Part shown: positions 2,137 through 11,605 of the stretch, one piece after another | Layout: each line of letters begins with the position of its first letter | Position numbering within the stretch: position 1 is the stretch's first letter | Assembly (NCBI RefSeq): GCF_900155425.1 | Contig: NZ_LT700191.1 | Span: 1,449,198-1,513,197 of the forward strand | Length of the DNA stretch: 64,000 bases | Direction: 5' to 3' | Origin: Parabacteroides massiliensis | GTDB taxonomy: Bacteria; Bacteroidota; Bacteroidia; Bacteroidales; Tannerellaceae | Translations under genes and position numbers: made by a program | The notes under the pieces: model-generated | The model's database searches: none | The model's input: only the letters and a program-made list of their open reading frames with translations | What the model was told of the DNA's origin: nothing

Positions 2137-4413
2137 TTATTCCTGTAGATTATCACTGTATAGTTCAAAAGAACAAACTTTCAGCCCATTCTCCATTTGG
2201 TAGAGAGTCCATCCGCGATTATCGGCCTTTGCTTCAAGACGCCAGTTAAGTGTCGGATTCTGTAACATTTTTCGGATATATGTTGGGAAAGCATTTGCTC
2301 GGCGAGCTTCCTCCCAAGTTCGAATCACATTGAAGATTGCATATTTTTGTGGACAACTCTCGACATCTTTTTGGCCGATCTTGAATGCATATGTACAACC
2401 ATACCCGATAGCTGTGGCTTCGATATGCTCATAATCCTCCACTGTCGACTCTGCCGTGATTGGAAAGTTCCCTCCGAATGACGACGGGAAAAAGTTGGCG
2501 TAAGTAACATCACGAAGATCTTTACCCTGGCTTGTTGTACTTCCCCATACACGCTTTTTAACATCATAAATATTCAAACCGCCTCCTACATTCCAAATGC
2601 TTTGATAATGCCAGGAGCCTTCAGAAAGAGTTGCTCCCGTAAAACGAATGTTGGGTAAACCATATTTTTCCGTCTGAGTAAACATGTTACGGAAGAAACG
2701 TTTCACCGAATAGGCTCCGAATCCGGTATGGAAATAGAATTCCTGTCCATCATAATCGAACATCCTCAGTCCGCTGTTCTTGCATATGTCCGCATAATGA
2801 CGTGCTAACTCATCCTGCAATTCCAAATTGGGAATCAATCCTGAGTACGCTCCTCCCACTGCAGGTTGAAGCTTATCTACGGCATCTCCTTTAACATGTG
2901 TGGCGGCCTTGGTTCCCCAGTAACCACGTGTCACTTTCATGAGTCGATACGGTTTCTCTTTTGTGACGCCGAGATAGTGAATCAATTCCTTTCCAATCTT
3001 AACCATATTCAATTCCGGGCTATGTCCTTCCCAACATGCTATTTCTTCCAGATGGGTAGGATCGTCGATATAGATCATCGTATCTGTTTCATTTAAATTC
3101 TCCATTAAGAAACGACGGTGTAAAATACAGATACTGTCTGAAGGGACCGGGCTGCAATCTTTGGTGCCGGGAGCCATAGAGTTGGAGATGGACGTCCGTC
3201 CGAGCATTAAACCATCCTTAGCTAAAAGATCGGCATATTCACGGGTTGACAAATCTTTATCCGTAAAATGATAACGTTTCTTTTCATGGTTCGGACCGTC
3301 GATGAAACCTCCATTTCCTCTATCGGCATGCAAGAAAGGCTGATCGTACGTATGAATTACTTTTAATCCCATCTGTTTGGCATATGAAGTTACGCTATCC
3401 ATAAGTCCACCGTATGTGCATATATCTGGCATGAAGCTGGTAGGATCTTTAACCCACTTACCTTGAAAAGTTGGATAAGGCAATCCTTCATTCTGTACAA
3501 TATCCTGGATGACCTCCAGCAAAGCCGTACTGTCAGGGCTACCCCATAAGGCGATGGATGAACCAATAAAATCCACTCCGGGAACATCCTGGCGCATCAT
3601 GTGGTTAGGTTCGTTATTTTGGAAGATGGGATTGCCTTCCGGAGAATAGATCATCTTGCCTTTTCTGCGATCACGAGAGTGATACCGGATATTGATTCGT
3701 CCGTTACAATCGACAAAAGCCGTATTCCCATATAAAATGCGGAAATATGGTTCTTTCCGATTGTAGAAAGCCACGTCATTGATGCCATCACCTCCCATTG
3801 TAAACTGTTGTCCCTCATGTAGAGTGAGTGGTAGTGGATGATTTACCTGATCTGGGGAATGAACGATATAACCAGAAGGCCCTGTTTCAGAAGTAAAACG
3901 CGATTCTCCACCGATCGTGTTATCATCCAATGCCAATGCTCCAATGGCATAACCTACAGCTGCTGATGTGTCACGTGCCACTCCGATTATCTCGCCCAGT
4001 AAATTAGTTATATTCGTATAGTAATTACCCCATTGTATACCATCGATTCCATTACGAGGTTCCAATCTTTCCAATTTTAGTTTGAAATATTTGGTTTTCT
4101 CTTCTATACTGACTGTGGCCACAGAACCGTTCTCATATTCCAATTGATACTTGCCTTCGCTATACATTGCCTTTTGTGGATAATAATAACGCTTTAGGTC
4201 TTCATCATAAAGTGACAACAGAGGAGAAGGTTGGTCTGCCGGACTGAAGTTACGGCTATCACTTGTCAAGTTCCACATTCCGGTAATATACCCCCGGCTA
4301 TCTATATCGATACCGAAACGATCTGTTTTGAATGAACGAGATCTTTCCACTCCACAAGCTGATAGCAATATGAGTATTACAGCCAGTGAGATAATTTTTT
4401 TTGTCATTATCAT
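2137..4413 (-). CDS. Putative lipoprotein glycoside hydrolase of unknown family (locus 1)
   Basis: The protein has 758 residues. The N-terminus ends in the lipobox LLSAC, so Cys20 would be lipidated and the protein anchored in a membrane, probably facing outward as usual for Sus-locus enzymes. The N-terminal 300 residues look like a beta-sandwich. The middle carries barrel-like strands ending in acidic motifs such as HTYDQPF (about residues 355-361) and FDYDGQEFYF (about 548-557), reminiscent of TIM-barrel alpha-glycosidases. The family was not recognised and the catalytic residues are guesses. It lies 166 bases after the susD gene and before another putative enzyme, which supports a role in glycan breakdown. 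ATG at 4407 is an alternative start that would drop two residues. Confidence 0.75.
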   Translation of the reverse strand: MIMTKKIISLAVILILLSACGVERSRSFKTDRFGIDIDSRGYITGMWNLTSDSRNFSPADQPSPLLSLYDEDLKRYYYPQKAMYSEGKYQLEYENGSVATVSIEEKTKYFKLKLERLEPRNGIDGIQWGNYYTNITNLLGEIIGVARDTSAAVGYAIGALALDDNTIGGESRFTSETGPSGYIVHSPDQVNHPLPLTLHEGQQFTMGGDGINDVAFYNRKEPYFRILYGNTAFVDCNGRINIRYHSRDRRKGKMIYSPEGNPIFQNNEPNHMMRQDVPGVDFIGSSIALWGSPDSTALLEVIQDIVQNEGLPYPTFQGKWVKDPTSFMPDICTYGGLMDSVTSYAKQMGLKVIHTYDQPFLHADRGNGGFIDGPNHEKKRYHFTDKDLSTREYADLLAKDGLMLGRTSISNSMAPGTKDCSPVPSDSICILHRRFLMENLNETDTMIYIDDPTHLEEIACWEGHSPELNMVKIGKELIHYLGVTKEKPYRLMKVTRGYWGTKAATHVKGDAVDKLQPAVGGAYSGLIPNLELQDELARHYADICKNSGLRMFDYDGQEFYFHTGFGAYSVKRFFRNMFTQTEKYGLPNIRFTGATLSEGSWHYQSIWNVGGGLNIYDVKKRVWGSTTSQGKDLRDVTYANFFPSSFGGNFPITAESTVEDYEHIEATAIGYGCTYAFKIGQKDVESCPQKYAIFNVIRTWEEARRANAFPTYIRKMLQNPTLNWRLEAKADNRGWTLYQMENGLKVCSFELYSDNLQE

Positions 4414-6386: not shown

Positions 6387-9300
6387 TTAGAATTTCACAT
6401 CAACCCCAAAGTTCCAAGACCGTAAAATCGGGAAAGCATTTCCATTTCCTATTTCCGGATCATAATAGTTCTTATTAAAGCTACTTAATACGAATAAATT
6501 TGTTCCAGTAATAAATAAACGGACATTATCAAAGACCTTATTATAGAACTGTCTTTGAGGTAAATCATAGCTTACCGTCAGATATTTCAGACGCATAAAA
6601 CTTGCATCTTTCAGCCAATAGCTGGAATTTGTCTGATACGTTTTCGAGTTGTTGTTGCTGATACGTTTGGGTAATGTCGCATTGGGTGTTTCCGGTGTCC
6701 AACTATCGTAATACCATTGGTTCCACATGCGGTTCCATTCTACACCACCGGCCAGATCAGACATCCATTTCTTTTCACCTAATCTTCCAGAGAACATCAT
6801 GTCAATATTTAGACCTTTCCAGCCACCACCAAGATTCAAACCATAAATGACAGGGAAATTTTTATTTTTTAATATTACACGGTCCCAATCGTTTATTACA
6901 CCATCGGGAATACCATCAGGTCCACTTATATCTTTAAATACCATCATACCCAATTCAGGAGACAATCCGTTGTGTTTGTAATTAGGGTTGGCTGCATTAA
7001 AAGCGTCCAGCTCTTCTTGGGTACGGATGATTTTATCAAATTCCCAACCAGTAATATAAGAAGTCGATTTACCTTCTGCGATATCGATCCATTGTGCGTT
7101 TTCTGCATGATCTTTTTTTATCACTTTGTTCCATCCATACGACATCGTCAGGTTTGCAAAATAAGAGAAATCTCGAGTTTGCCCGCGATAACCTAATTGG
7201 AAATCGATACCTTGTGCATGGACTTCTCCATAGTTTTCTGCCGGCATGGATAAACTAAATGTCGATGGCAATGTATTAGTACGGCTACCCAAAATGTCAT
7301 AAGAATTGCGGAACCAGTAGTCAGTTGAGAGATTCCAATGGTTCAAGAAATTCATGTCTACGCCAATATTGTAACTCAATGATTTTTCCCAAGTCAGATT
7401 CGGGTTGACCACACTTCCATAAGTTATACCAACCGATTTTACAGGATTTTTACCAAAATAGGCAGAACTGCCTGAGTTATAAGATTCTTGCCACTGCCAT
7501 CCGCCAACGGAGTCATTACCGGTCAAACCGACAGAACCACGTATTTTTAAAAACTGAATAGTACTTCTATTAAAGAAATCTTCTTCTGAAATAATCCAAC
7601 CAAGAGATCCAGCCGGGAAGAATCCCCAACGTTGTTCTGGTGCAAAGTTCATCGAACCGTCTTCACGAAAAGAGAAAGTTGCCAAATACTTATCTGCATA
7701 TGAATAACTGAACTGTCCGATATAAGACAGACGGCCATTTATCCAGTCGGTGTCACCATTCCCCCATGTGTCTGTACGGGAGCTGCTTGCTGCCCAAAAC
7801 TGATCTGTTGTATATACAGGAAAAGTTTCACGTCCACCTGTGACACCTGCACCACCACCTTCATACCATTCTGTTACGAATACTGCCGATACACGATGTT
7901 TTCCTTTGAATACATTTTCGTAATTCAACTGGAAGTTTAATTGTTTGTCATCGCTCCAACTTGATTTACGCTCAATATAATCCTTACCAACCCATGTCGA
8001 TTTTCTTGTACTGATGATATCATTATCATTTGTAGATATAATACGATTATTCGTGCCACTTTTTTTCATGGTCATCAAATCATAATTGATATAAAACTTC
8101 TTATTGACATCATTCGTCCAACTTTTGCTATAGGAAACTTTTGCGCTTAGACCTTTCAAGAATGGCATTTTGTAAGTCGCACTGATAACTGCTTGAGGTT
8201 TCAACATCTGTGATTTGTTATAACCTCCTTTTCCATCAACAGCTGCTCCCATATTGGCTATCCAGCCATAATCAATATACTGTCCGTTATCCGTATAAAC
8301 CGGTTGATCCGGTTGCCAGACTCTCAGTTTGCTGTAATTAGAAGCTGCATTTTCAAAAACCGCATTTCCTGTGAAGTTGTTGTAAATAGCCAAACCTGCA
8401 AAGACCTCTAAGTCTTTTGTGATATCGGCAGTAACATTCATACGAATGTTATATTTATCATACGTCAACGGTTTTAAGAAACCCTTTTGTTTCACATAAG
8501 AAGCAGCTCCGAAATAACGAACCCGATCACTACCGCCATTTACACTCAAGTTATGTGTTTGGGTTGTCGGATTTCTCCATACTGTTTCCAGCTGGTCATA
8601 TCCCCAACCTCCATTTATCGTTTTGAAATGGTCAATTTCCTCTTGTGACCAAGCCCAACCCGCAGGATCAGCAGAACCATTGATGCGTGTGTACATTTCA
8701 CCTGCCTGAACAGCACTTGTCAATTCTGAATTTTTAGTACGGGAATCCGTGCTAAAGCCATATGAATAATTGAATGTCGGTTTTCCCCGATTACCTTTTT
8801 TTGTGGTAACAACTATTACACCTCCAGCAGAACGCGAGCCATAAATAGCAGCAGAGGCAGCATCCTTTAATACGGAAACATCCTCGATTTCATTCGGGCT
8901 CAAATTATTAAAATCTCCACTGCCACGAACAACCCCATCAATCACATAAGTGACATTCTCTGCGTTCCAAGATGCACCTGTACGAATAGAAATATTAGGT
9001 GCTGTTCCAGGAAGAGCACTCGGTGTACTCACATTTACTCCAGCTAATTTACCAACCAAAATGTTTCCGGCGGATGTTGTGGGAAGTGCTTTTACATTTT
9101 CTTCCACTTTCATGGATGATACGGCTCCTGTAACCAGCCCCTTTTTTTGTGTCATATAACCGACAACAACTACTTCATCCAGCAATTCTGAATCATTTGC
9201 TAATGTAATATTGAATGTTTTTCCCCTTATTACCGGGACTTCTAGATTTTTAAAACCCACATATGATATCAATAATGTCGCATTATCATCTACACTTAAA

Positions 9301-9782
9301 GAAAAATTGCCGTTGATATCTGAAATTGTACCATTATCCTTGGTACCTTTTTCTAAAATGTTAGCACCAATCACTGGTTCACCATTCGGATCATGGATAG
9401 AACCGGTGACGATTTTTTTATTTTGATCGACTGCTGTTGTGATATGAGAGGTCTCTTTCGGTTTATAAATAGAGATTGTTTTATTTTCAATATCATATTT
9501 CACTTCCATACCTTCAAAAACGGAAGCCAAGACCTGGTTAAGAGTTTTGTCTGTCGCGTTGACCGTAACAGTTTGTTTGATATTTATATCATTATTACGG
9601 ACTAAGATCGAATATCCGGTTTGTCGTTCTATATCATCCAGTACTTTACTGATAGGTACATTTTGGTGATGTACTGTAATTTTTATACTTTGTAATACAG
9701 TATTTGCATACATGGATGCAGAGATTACACTCATCGCCAAAAATAAGCTCAATTGTTTGATTGAAAAATACTTTATTTTCAT
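6387..9782 (-). CDS. SusC/RagA-family TonB-dependent outer membrane transporter with STN domain (locus 1)
   Basis: This 1131-residue TonB-dependent transporter would import oligosaccharides across the outer membrane. A signal peptide (1-26) is followed by a secretin/TonB N-terminal (STN) domain (about 30-110), which in this family contacts a FecR anti-sigma factor. Next come a carboxypeptidase-regulatory-like domain (about 125-205), the TonB-box region with LDEVVVVGYMTQKK, a plug domain (VSVLKDAASAAIYGSRSAGG) and the C-terminal beta-barrel ending in an aromatic strand (FGVDVKF). The fecR and sigma factor genes lie just upstream on the same strand, so transcription is probably induced by the substrate through trans-envelope signalling. 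On the opposite strand the start codon overlaps the -7 box of a candidate antisense RNA. Confidence 0.96.
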   Translation of the reverse strand: MKIKYFSIKQLSLFLAMSVISASMYANTVLQSIKITVHHQNVPISKVLDDIERQTGYSILVRNNDINIKQTVTVNATDKTLNQVLASVFEGMEVKYDIENKTISIYKPKETSHITTAVDQNKKIVTGSIHDPNGEPVIGANILEKGTKDNGTISDINGNFSLSVDDNATLLISYVGFKNLEVPVIRGKTFNITLANDSELLDEVVVVGYMTQKKGLVTGAVSSMKVEENVKALPTTSAGNILVGKLAGVNVSTPSALPGTAPNISIRTGASWNAENVTYVIDGVVRGSGDFNNLSPNEIEDVSVLKDAASAAIYGSRSAGGVIVVTTKKGNRGKPTFNYSYGFSTDSRTKNSELTSAVQAGEMYTRINGSADPAGWAWSQEEIDHFKTINGGWGYDQLETVWRNPTTQTHNLSVNGGSDRVRYFGAASYVKQKGFLKPLTYDKYNIRMNVTADITKDLEVFAGLAIYNNFTGNAVFENAASNYSKLRVWQPDQPVYTDNGQYIDYGWIANMGAAVDGKGGYNKSQMLKPQAVISATYKMPFLKGLSAKVSYSKSWTNDVNKKFYINYDLMTMKKSGTNNRIISTNDNDIISTRKSTWVGKDYIERKSSWSDDKQLNFQLNYENVFKGKHRVSAVFVTEWYEGGGAGVTGGRETFPVYTTDQFWAASSSRTDTWGNGDTDWINGRLSYIGQFSYSYADKYLATFSFREDGSMNFAPEQRWGFFPAGSLGWIISEEDFFNRSTIQFLKIRGSVGLTGNDSVGGWQWQESYNSGSSAYFGKNPVKSVGITYGSVVNPNLTWEKSLSYNIGVDMNFLNHWNLSTDYWFRNSYDILGSRTNTLPSTFSLSMPAENYGEVHAQGIDFQLGYRGQTRDFSYFANLTMSYGWNKVIKKDHAENAQWIDIAEGKSTSYITGWEFDKIIRTQEELDAFNAANPNYKHNGLSPELGMMVFKDISGPDGIPDGVINDWDRVILKNKNFPVIYGLNLGGGWKGLNIDMMFSGRLGEKKWMSDLAGGVEWNRMWNQWYYDSWTPETPNATLPKRISNNNSKTYQTNSSYWLKDASFMRLKYLTVSYDLPQRQFYNKVFDNVRLFITGTNLFVLSSFNKNYYDPEIGNGNAFPILRSWNFGVDVKF

Positions 9783-9789
9783 ACTTTTG
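9756..9789 (+). promoter_or_regulatory. Candidate promoter of an antisense RNA opposing susC (locus 1)
   Basis: A plus-strand TTTG (9756-9759), 22 spacer bases and TACTTTTG (9782-9789) match the Bacteroidetes housekeeping promoter pattern (TTTG near -33, TAnnTTTG near -7). Spacer length equals that of the clear promoter before the second sigma factor gene. The -7 box overlaps the A of the susC start codon on the other strand. Confidence 0.5.
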
Positions 9790-9794
9790 TAACG

Positions 9795-9877
9795 ATTTTG
9801 TTAGTTAGTAACTAATTAATTCAAAAAATCATCTAATGAATCGGAGAGAAGTGCCAACCATCTCCGATTCTTTTTTT
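9795..9877 (+). ncRNA. Candidate DonS-like cis-antisense small RNA to the susC leader (locus 1)
   Basis: A transcript from the promoter at 9756-9789 would start near 9795 and end at the terminator whose U-run finishes at 9877. It would be about 80 nt long and fully complementary to the 5' leader of the minus-strand susC mRNA. No plus-strand gene ends here, so the plus-oriented terminator has no other obvious use. In Bacteroides fragilis, DonS-type antisense RNAs repress Sus-type loci that have ECF sigma/anti-sigma pairs from the same position. The RNA itself is inferred; only the promoter-like and terminator sequences are seen. The second Sus locus has a matching arrangement. Confidence 0.5.
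9838..9877 (+). terminator. Rho-independent terminator on the plus strand between susC and fecR
   Basis: GAATCGGAGA (9838-9847) pairs perfectly with TCTCCGATTC (9861-9870) across a 13-base loop, followed by seven T residues on the plus strand. Read on the minus strand it lacks a U-run directly after the stem, so it points against the operon. Confidence 0.75.
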
Positions 9878-9936
9878 ATCCTGTTCTTCCCATAAGTTTT
9901 ATTTTAAAGTTAAACATTATTATATCACTCACAGTT

Positions 9937-10932
9937 TCATTTATCTTTTAAGGTGATGACGCCTCCACTCTGTTCAAAACGATACTTCTTGTCCACATCG
10001 ATAAAGTTAAACACATCCTGAAGCGACATATTCAGATCGATACTTCCTGTAAAATATTCATTCGTCACATTAGGGCTATCCACATGTATTTTGATATTGT
10101 ATTTCCGTTCTATATCTTTCAATATATCCAGGAAAGATGCATTTACAAAACTCAATCTACCCGTTGTCCACAATGCTGATTTGTAGGATTCGACAGTTTC
10201 GCTGTATAAGTTTCCGGTGTTGCGGTTATAAATAGCTTTTTCATCCGGTTTCAAACGAACATACTTATTGTTGGCAAAGACATCAACCCCTCCATTGATC
10301 AGGGTAACTTCTGTCGATTGATCTTCCTGATAGCAACGGAGATTAAATTCAGTGCCTGTAACTTTTACTGTTATATCTCCGGCATATACCTGAAATATTT
10401 TTTCTTTATCTTTTGCCACATCAAAATATCCTTCTCCAACTAAATATACATTTCGCTCTTTTTTCCCATAAGATAATGGATACTTTAACATGGAACCGGA
10501 GTTAAGGACCACTACGGAGCCATCAGGTAAAAGAACTTTTGTTTGTGAACCCAAAGGAACCGTTGTCTCATTATATAACAGGTCATCTGATTCATCTAAC
10601 TCATTATATGTAAAAATCGAACCAACGGATACGGTTATCATTAATAAAAGGATGGCTGCAATGTTTCGAGCATAAATGAACCATTTACTGTGGAGAGTTC
10701 TTTCGGTAGTCAAATGCAATTTTTCTTTTAGAAGAATATAACCGGCCTTTTTCTGAGATTCAAAAGTCGGGATATGGAGCAAAACATACAGCTTGACCAT
10801 TTCATGGTATTGTTTTCGGTATAAATCAGATTCTTCTATTAAAGCAAACAAAGAGGTTTTTTCTTCATCTGTTATTGAACCTGATATATATTTATCCATT
10901 AATTCTTCAAATAGTATATTTTTATCTTGCAT
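9937..10932 (-). CDS. FecR-family anti-sigma factor (locus 1)
   Basis: This 331-residue inner-membrane protein would hold the partner ECF sigma factor inactive until the STN domain of SusC signals substrate. The N-terminal about 90 residues are cytoplasmic and helical (sigma-binding). One membrane helix lies at about 85-105 (AAILLLMITVSVGSIF). The periplasmic part carries the FecR domain (about 125-225, with LPDGSVVVLNSGSMLKYP and GEGYFDVAKD) and a C-terminal DUF4974-type domain that ends in GGVITLKDK. It lies between the sigma factor gene and susC, all on one strand. Family assignment is firm; the partner specificity is inferred from position. Confidence 0.95.
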   Translation of the reverse strand: MQDKNILFEELMDKYISGSITDEEKTSLFALIEESDLYRKQYHEMVKLYVLLHIPTFESQKKAGYILLKEKLHLTTERTLHSKWFIYARNIAAILLLMITVSVGSIFTYNELDESDDLLYNETTVPLGSQTKVLLPDGSVVVLNSGSMLKYPLSYGKKERNVYLVGEGYFDVAKDKEKIFQVYAGDITVKVTGTEFNLRCYQEDQSTEVTLINGGVDVFANNKYVRLKPDEKAIYNRNTGNLYSETVESYKSALWTTGRLSFVNASFLDILKDIERKYNIKIHVDSPNVTNEYFTGSIDLNMSLQDVFNFIDVDKKYRFEQSGGVITLKDK

Positions 10933-11026: not shown

Positions 11027-11605
11027 TTAGTAAATAAGAAAGAGGAGAAGATGTTTAAGGGCTTGTTTCAAGCGATCAGTCGCATTTTTGAGCTGTACAC
11101 GTACTGTGCTAACAGTCAGTTCCATTTCTTCAGCAATTACGTCGATGGTTTTTCCTGCATAAAAATATTCTTCAAAAACTTTCTTGCATTTTAGAGGTAA
11201 TTGGTCCACAGCCGAGCGTATTTCATCTTCTGTCTGTCGCATTTCTACATACTGTAACGGGAGGGGAGTCGATTGAATATAAGATTCTAAATAAGCCAGC
11301 AACTGATCTTTGTGAATATCCAACAAGTTCTGTTGGTTTCTCTGTGAACGAATATAATTGAGGCATCCATTCTGTACGGAACGGACTAAATAATAATGGA
11401 TTGGATATACTAAGGTTTCTTTTTTTAACCAGACGTTTATGAAAACATCATCAACAATTTCAGAACAAAGTTGTTTGTCCAATAAGTAATATAGGGCGAT
11501 TGCATTCAGGTAACTATAATAATGACTATATAACTTAGCAAAAGCCTTTTCAGAACCATTTCTGATTTGTTTTATGATCTCTTCATTTATATGGTTTATA
11601 TTCAT
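11027..11605 (-). CDS. ECF-type RNA polymerase sigma-70 factor (locus 1)
   Basis: This 192-residue protein has sigma region 2 (about 20-85, with the AFAKLYSHYYSYL core) and region 4 (about 130-180, with LPLKCKKVFEEYFYAGKTIDVIAEEM and a helix-turn-helix). It resembles the sigma factors that control Bacteroides Sus-type loci. It would direct transcription of the downstream susC operon when released by FecR, which lies 94 bases downstream. A TATATTTG box 78 bases before the start codon is the likely housekeeping promoter. The C-terminal LLLFLIY tail is hydrophobic, a common oddity in this subfamily. Confidence 0.93.
   Translation of the reverse strand: MNINHINEEIIKQIRNGSEKAFAKLYSHYYSYLNAIALYYLLDKQLCSEIVDDVFINVWLKKETLVYPIHYYLVRSVQNGCLNYIRSQRNQQNLLDIHKDQLLAYLESYIQSTPLPLQYVEMRQTEDEIRSAVDQLPLKCKKVFEEYFYAGKTIDVIAEEMELTVSTVRVQLKNATDRLKQALKHLLLFLIY

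Follow-up and report, generated by a model that had tools for sequence, protein, structure and literature searches.

A putative DonS-type antisense RNA gene with its promoter box on the susC start codon of a Parabacteroides Sus-type locus

The intergenic region between fecR and susC of a Sus-type locus in the analysed DNA (the window, a stretch of 64,000 nucleotides from the 5.0-Mb genome of Parabacteroides massiliensis, G000) most probably encodes in cis an antisense RNA with a length of about 83 nt, which by its sequence features is of the PUL-associated DonS type and is proposed to act as a brake on susC (estimated probability about 0.82). Antisense RNAs of this kind are already known; what is added here is the fusion of the RNA's promoter box with the start codon of its target as a recognizable signature, and an adjoining mini-ORF. 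DonS from Bacteroides fragilis, together with the family of PUL antisense RNAs to which it belongs, was reportedly described by Cao et al. 2016; according to the earlier note on this DNA, which had proposed an RNA antisense to the susC leader, DonS is said to repress a Sus-type locus with an ECF sigma/anti-sigma pair in that species. The genes of the present locus are:

6387..9782, minus strand: susC (STN and Plug domains), the target gene, with its start codon at 9780-9782
6376-4580, minus strand: susD
9937..10932, minus strand: FecR-type anti-sigma gene
11027..11605, minus strand: ECF sigma gene (TIGR02985)

The fecR-susC gap comprises 154 nt (9783-9936) and is free of ORFs of 100 aa or more, in agreement with the earlier claim that promoter and terminator have no gene of their own. 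The proposed placement antisense to the susC leader was likewise borne out, with susC on the minus strand and both box and terminator on the plus strand within the gap, as was the ECF sigma/anti-sigma context (genes for ECF sigma, FecR, SusC and SusD are all present). The closest named relative, Parabacteroides faecis JCM 18682, shares 94% protein identity in SusC and 93% identity across the gap DNA. On the 3' side of susD lies a gene for a 758-aa lipoprotein-like product (2137-4413, minus strand), for which no Pfam or NCBIfam match was obtained at E 0.001. The elements of the predicted RNA gene are:

9756-9759, plus strand: TTTG, candidate -33 element, 22-nt spacer to TACTTTTG, not conserved
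9782-9789, plus strand: -7 box TACTTTTG, which overlaps the start codon of susC
9795..9877, plus strand: predicted antisense RNA of about 83 nt (putative 5' end)
9801..9815, plus strand: dyad TTAGTT-AGT-AACTAA near the 5' end of the RNA, its arms unchanged across the seven aligned sequences
9838..9877, plus strand: intrinsic terminator from sequence and folding (10-bp hairpin, 13-nt loop, T7)

The box TACTTTTG reads as a match to the sigma-ABfr -7 consensus TAnnTTTG, and its first T is the complement of the A in the susC ATG. The TTTG that sigma-ABfr promoters carry around -33 is present at 22-nt spacing; it is retained in P. faecis and changed to TTTA in G045, while a -33-like match was not found in G052, G020 and G007, nor a -33 consensus among the paralogues. 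Of the promoter read in the earlier note, the -7 box thus stood, at its place and recurring over loci, and the TTTG proved weak and not conserved; the box is the one well-supported promoter part because of this lack of conservation and the 22-nt spacer. A sigma-70-type promoter scan is not informative for this phylum.

The terminator hairpin GAATCGGAGA...TCTCCGATTC occupies 9838-9870 and is followed by seven T (9871-9877), so that the 10-bp stem and seven T residues claimed for the plus strand were located; a generic terminator scan misses this hairpin because it allows loops of 8 nt at most. With a 5' end inferred at about 9795, the 83-nt RNA (9795-9877) folds with -21.4 kcal/mol (z -5.4; none of 200 shuffled sequences folded as well), is fully complementary to approximately -13 to -95 of the susC mRNA and ends short of the AUG. 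An Rfam search of the window gave no family at gathering score; three sub-threshold matches in the gap were rejected as chance, the best being MicC with 30 bits against a cut-off of 90. As to peptides within the RNA, the ATG at 9836 reads beyond the terminator by inspection, and a TTG-started frame of five codons lies at 9798-9815. The calculated duplexes of such RNAs with their cognate leaders ranged from -130 to -220 kcal/mol compared with a median of -36 for non-cognate pairs (18 loci), the strongest of the latter (-90 and -78 kcal/mol) coming from the L008/L019 pair. Since the cognate duplexes far outweigh the others, pairing is likely to be specific to the RNA's own leader according to these calculations, with possible cross-talk between the two paralogues L008 and L019.

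P. faecis and G045 carry the window's hairpin unchanged, and G053 lacks its outermost pair (the box of G053 is unreadable because the contig begins inside it); the more distant G052, G020 and G007, the latter two of another genus, retain the hairpin with base changes. All six relatives also retain TTAGTT-AAC-AACTAA in the 5' part of the RNA. Covariation across the seven aligned orthologues was not above that of shuffles, the sequences being too alike; the case rests on the paralogues because pair counting in orthologues says nothing for covariation. A palindrome TTAGTACTA(A) occurs at a similar distance from the receptor gene in L015, L016 and L020, loci without the antisense RNA; judged from its sequence, this palindrome, like the dyad at 9801-9815, could be a protein-binding site.

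A lone hairpin proves little because such terminators also arose in 125 of 1160 shuffled gaps; on the sense strand they were scored in 3 of 32 loci. Box and terminator were scored jointly in the DNA upstream of the 32 STN-domain matches found in this genome (mostly SusC-like, with a few shorter TonB receptors), using a fixed box TAnnTTTG beginning on the start codon together with a terminator test based on folding; the gaps of L013, L030 and L031 (<15 nt) are too short for the feature. With start codons set by hand, 17 loci contained both elements, none the terminator only, one the box only and 14 neither: the box lies over the start codon in all 17 loci with an antisense terminator versus 1 of the 15 others. 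For L027, L029 and L032 a later in-frame ATG had been chosen before their upstream bases were shown; with the first ATG they lose the box, and the distribution becomes about 15/2/0/15 (both, terminator only, box only, neither). A held-out set of 70 STN matches from two congeneric genomes (55 of 65 in G045, 15 of 24 in G036; 69 usable), in which an in-frame ATG counted as start if it lay no more than 105 nt from the first, gave 42 loci with both, 8 with the terminator only, none with the box only and 19 with neither. Some of the eight terminator-only loci have near-miss boxes such as TAGATTTA, and the hairpins of two are weak (-8.1 and -8.4 kcal/mol). The resulting values (Fisher p=3e-8 in the own genome, p=5e-11 in the held-out set) are to be read as strong and not as exact, since the loci are kin within and between genomes and independence is overstated. 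By these sequence comparisons, the pairing of box and terminator is not a chance association.

The hairpin sequences differ in 58 of the 59 loci with box and terminator, while position and form are kept; the lengths predicted for these RNAs are 67-134 nt, 51 of 59 being inside the published range of 78-128 nt. Restriction to the STN-bearing receptor class is indicated by a control of hand-picked Plug-domain matches from the same genome (35 of 88, chosen for a long frame without an STN match in the vicinity, of which 34 were usable), where the box was present in one, the terminator in seven and both in none; the class border is not perfectly sharp, because two of the seven (L185 and L196) combine a well-placed hairpin with a near-miss box. 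Across the order, 60 genomes were surveyed and an STN match was present in 35 of them; 30 loci were taken, each from a different genome, and the 28 usable ones outside the own genome comprised 2 loci with both, 4 with the terminator only and 22 with neither. This count is a lower bound because in at least three cases (L071, L087, L088) the frame seems to be the wrong one. A second STN-domain receptor gene of the window (start 23544, plus strand) is the box-only locus L032:

23456-23544, minus strand: antisense box (23544-23537), strong hairpin (23485-23456) and delayed T-run of L032

Besides the antisense elements, the susC leaders contain a recurrent heptamer, GCCTATG, which was present in 15 of 29 gaps against a mean of 0.05 over 20 shuffled sets. 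It is positioned 86-192 nt before susC both with and without the antisense RNA. The reading frame opened by its ATG reaches a stop within five codons in 14 of the 15 own loci and in 27 of the 30 held-out ones (41/45 pooled), compared with 3 of 15 and 6 of 30 (9/45) for the +2 control frame (pooled p=5e-12). A fixed DNA motif does not explain these stops because the frames are of variable length, 1 to 7 codons in 15/15 own and 28/30 held-out loci; the counter-cases L152 and L155 (2 of 30 held-out) run for 28 codons. GCCTATG also precedes 3 of the 34 receptor genes without STN. In all 20 held-out loci where heptamer and antisense hairpin occur together, it is found 26-61 nt past the hairpin, and likewise beyond the hairpin in the 10 own loci. 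Since a translated feature must sit in the mRNA, these frames suggest that the sense leader of the susC mRNA should run through the antisense region. Mini-ORF, box and terminator are all present in L079 and L084, from other families of the order. At the present locus the mini-ORF has a relaxed form:

9876..9893, minus strand: mini-ORF MGRTG-stop, ending at the T-run of the antisense RNA

By eye, P. faecis, G045 and G053 retain its start and stop, G020 and G007 have it one codon shorter, and none was seen in G052. Leader mini-ORFs without GCCTATG that end in Pro-stop were observed in L001, L004, L008 and L019 (MNKGP, MGP, MKTFKPP and MKNRPP, respectively); Pro-stop can stall ribosomes. Ribosome loading or the sensing of translation state are guesses at the role of the mini-ORFs. 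No published description of such mini-ORFs in susC leaders was found in the literature searched, and this observation may be newer than that of the antisense RNA. Tentatively, and with somewhat more doubt than belief, we propose that the ECF-controlled susC leader of Parabacteroides is a single two-part device, in which an antisense RNA, its -7 box merged with the start codon, and a start-stop mini-ORF that is translated at the distal end of the leader (GCCTATG, with mostly 1-5 codons before the stop) would together set leader access: ribosomes starting and stopping at the mini-ORF beside the end of the antisense RNA would decide between the antisense RNA and the susC ribosome.

The passages on the DonS family in PMC7366714, PMC11697453, PMC10994844 and PMC9723704 report such RNAs for 15 B. 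fragilis PULs; they are described as antisense RNAs of 78-128 nt, divergent from susC homologues and acting against them (PMC7366714), and DonS itself as repressing its PUL by a mechanism called unknown (PMC11697453). The predicted RNA resembles them in lying at the head of a PUL, antisense to the 5' part of a susC homologue and divergent from it, in its length of 83 nt (counted from the putative 5' end), in having its own intrinsic terminator by sequence and folding, and in the company of ECF sigma and FecR-type anti-sigma genes; it differs in its host, Parabacteroides, and the likeness is one of layout, size and context to a DonS known here from descriptions. Together with its own -7 box, the recurrence in 17 of 32 own STN loci and 42 of 69 congeneric loci, and the conservation of this copy in relatives, these features support the DonS-type interpretation of the earlier note. 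The same genomic layout is shown by the PUL-associated antisense RNAs of B. thetaiotaomicron (ten, later 32, in the parts of PMC7366714 and PMC10994844 that treat them), which were seen by RNA-seq and Northern blot, in contrast to the present RNA, predicted from sequence and comparison; a canonical sigma-ABfr promoter is given there for 52% of the cis-antisense RNAs of the B. thetaiotaomicron map. Monosaccharide repression of mucin O-glycan PULs maps to a cis-acting intergenic region (Pudlo et al. 2015, via PMC5635687), for which such an antisense RNA is one possible means; the description of that work in PMC5635687 was seen to draw no link to antisense RNA in the part concerned.

The recurrence of box and terminator also bears on other explanations of the region. 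If the hairpin were a sense-strand device (an mRNA 5' stabiliser or a leader switch) with an incidental antisense T-run, it would be understandable that the sense strand folds here as well (-19.0 kcal/mol, z -3.3) and that conserved leader features such as GCCTATG occur in some gaps without the antisense RNA; such a device is nevertheless very improbable, for the held-out boxes always accompany such a terminator (42/42), and the hairpin flank is T-richer on the antisense side in 17 of 17 own loci (mean 6.0 versus 2.1 of 8), a comparison biased by a detector that itself required T on this side and informative in the absence of a sense-side T-run. Slightly less credence still is given to antisense noise, i.e. 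a chance promoter in AT-rich DNA and an insulating terminator with no regulation: the caveat that noise may account for most antisense RNAs in low-GC genomes is raised in the relevant passage of PMC7366714, but linkage over loci and conservation in relatives speak against it here. The least probable alternative takes the CAAAnnTATG context as a translation-initiation signal of the phylum with no antisense promoter; an A-rich upstream context is indeed typical of Bacteroidetes starts, as stated in a passage of PMC7366714, yet context alone would not track a terminator, and the box is missing where the terminator is missing (14/15 own STN and 19/19 held-out loci; also 33/34 non-STN receptor genes).

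A rather unlikely alternative, though less so than the preceding three, is that the act of transcription matters and not the RNA, with polymerase starting on the susC start codon and colliding with or blocking the sense polymerase. The overlap of the -7 box with the start codon (17/17 own and 42/50 held-out terminator loci) would suit this explanation, but interference alone needs neither a conserved terminator nor a fully complementary product of 80 nt, and DonS-type RNAs are described in PMC7366714, in the passage on this family, as accumulating as discrete RNAs.

In the preferred reading, an antisense RNA that brakes susC, housekeeping RNA polymerase would initiate from the -7 box laid on the susC start codon, head away from susC across the 5' leader and halt at the hairpin and T7 before fecR; the RNA would begin approximately 12 nt before the AUG and extend over the leader as far as about -95. 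While FecR sequesters the ECF sigma factor, the antisense RNA would pair with the few leaky susC leaders, blocking ribosome entry at the AU-rich leader and/or exposing the duplex to RNase, and the antisense promoter on the start codon would additionally interfere with sense transcription. A glycan signal would free the sigma factor, whereupon sense polymerase traffic would cross the antisense promoter and outnumber the RNA, with a sharp on-switch as the outcome, strong ECF-driven transcription overriding the damping. Repression is not certain here, because some antisense RNA/PUL pairs of B. thetaiotaomicron correlate positively according to the part of PMC10994844 on these pairs. A sense ECF promoter of susC, sought by k-mers and by anchoring on GCCTATG, could not be named.

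The predicted RNA would extend the DonS-type brake to Parabacteroides and provides a simple signature usable on genome sequence alone, an antisense TAnnTTTG over the start codon with a terminator roughly 45-140 nt on. The fused layout of box and start codon makes the two modes of action, pairing and interference, directly testable. The mini-ORF, if real, would add a second layer of control in these leaders, and if the two-part device were true, translation state would be read directly into the expression of glycan transporters.
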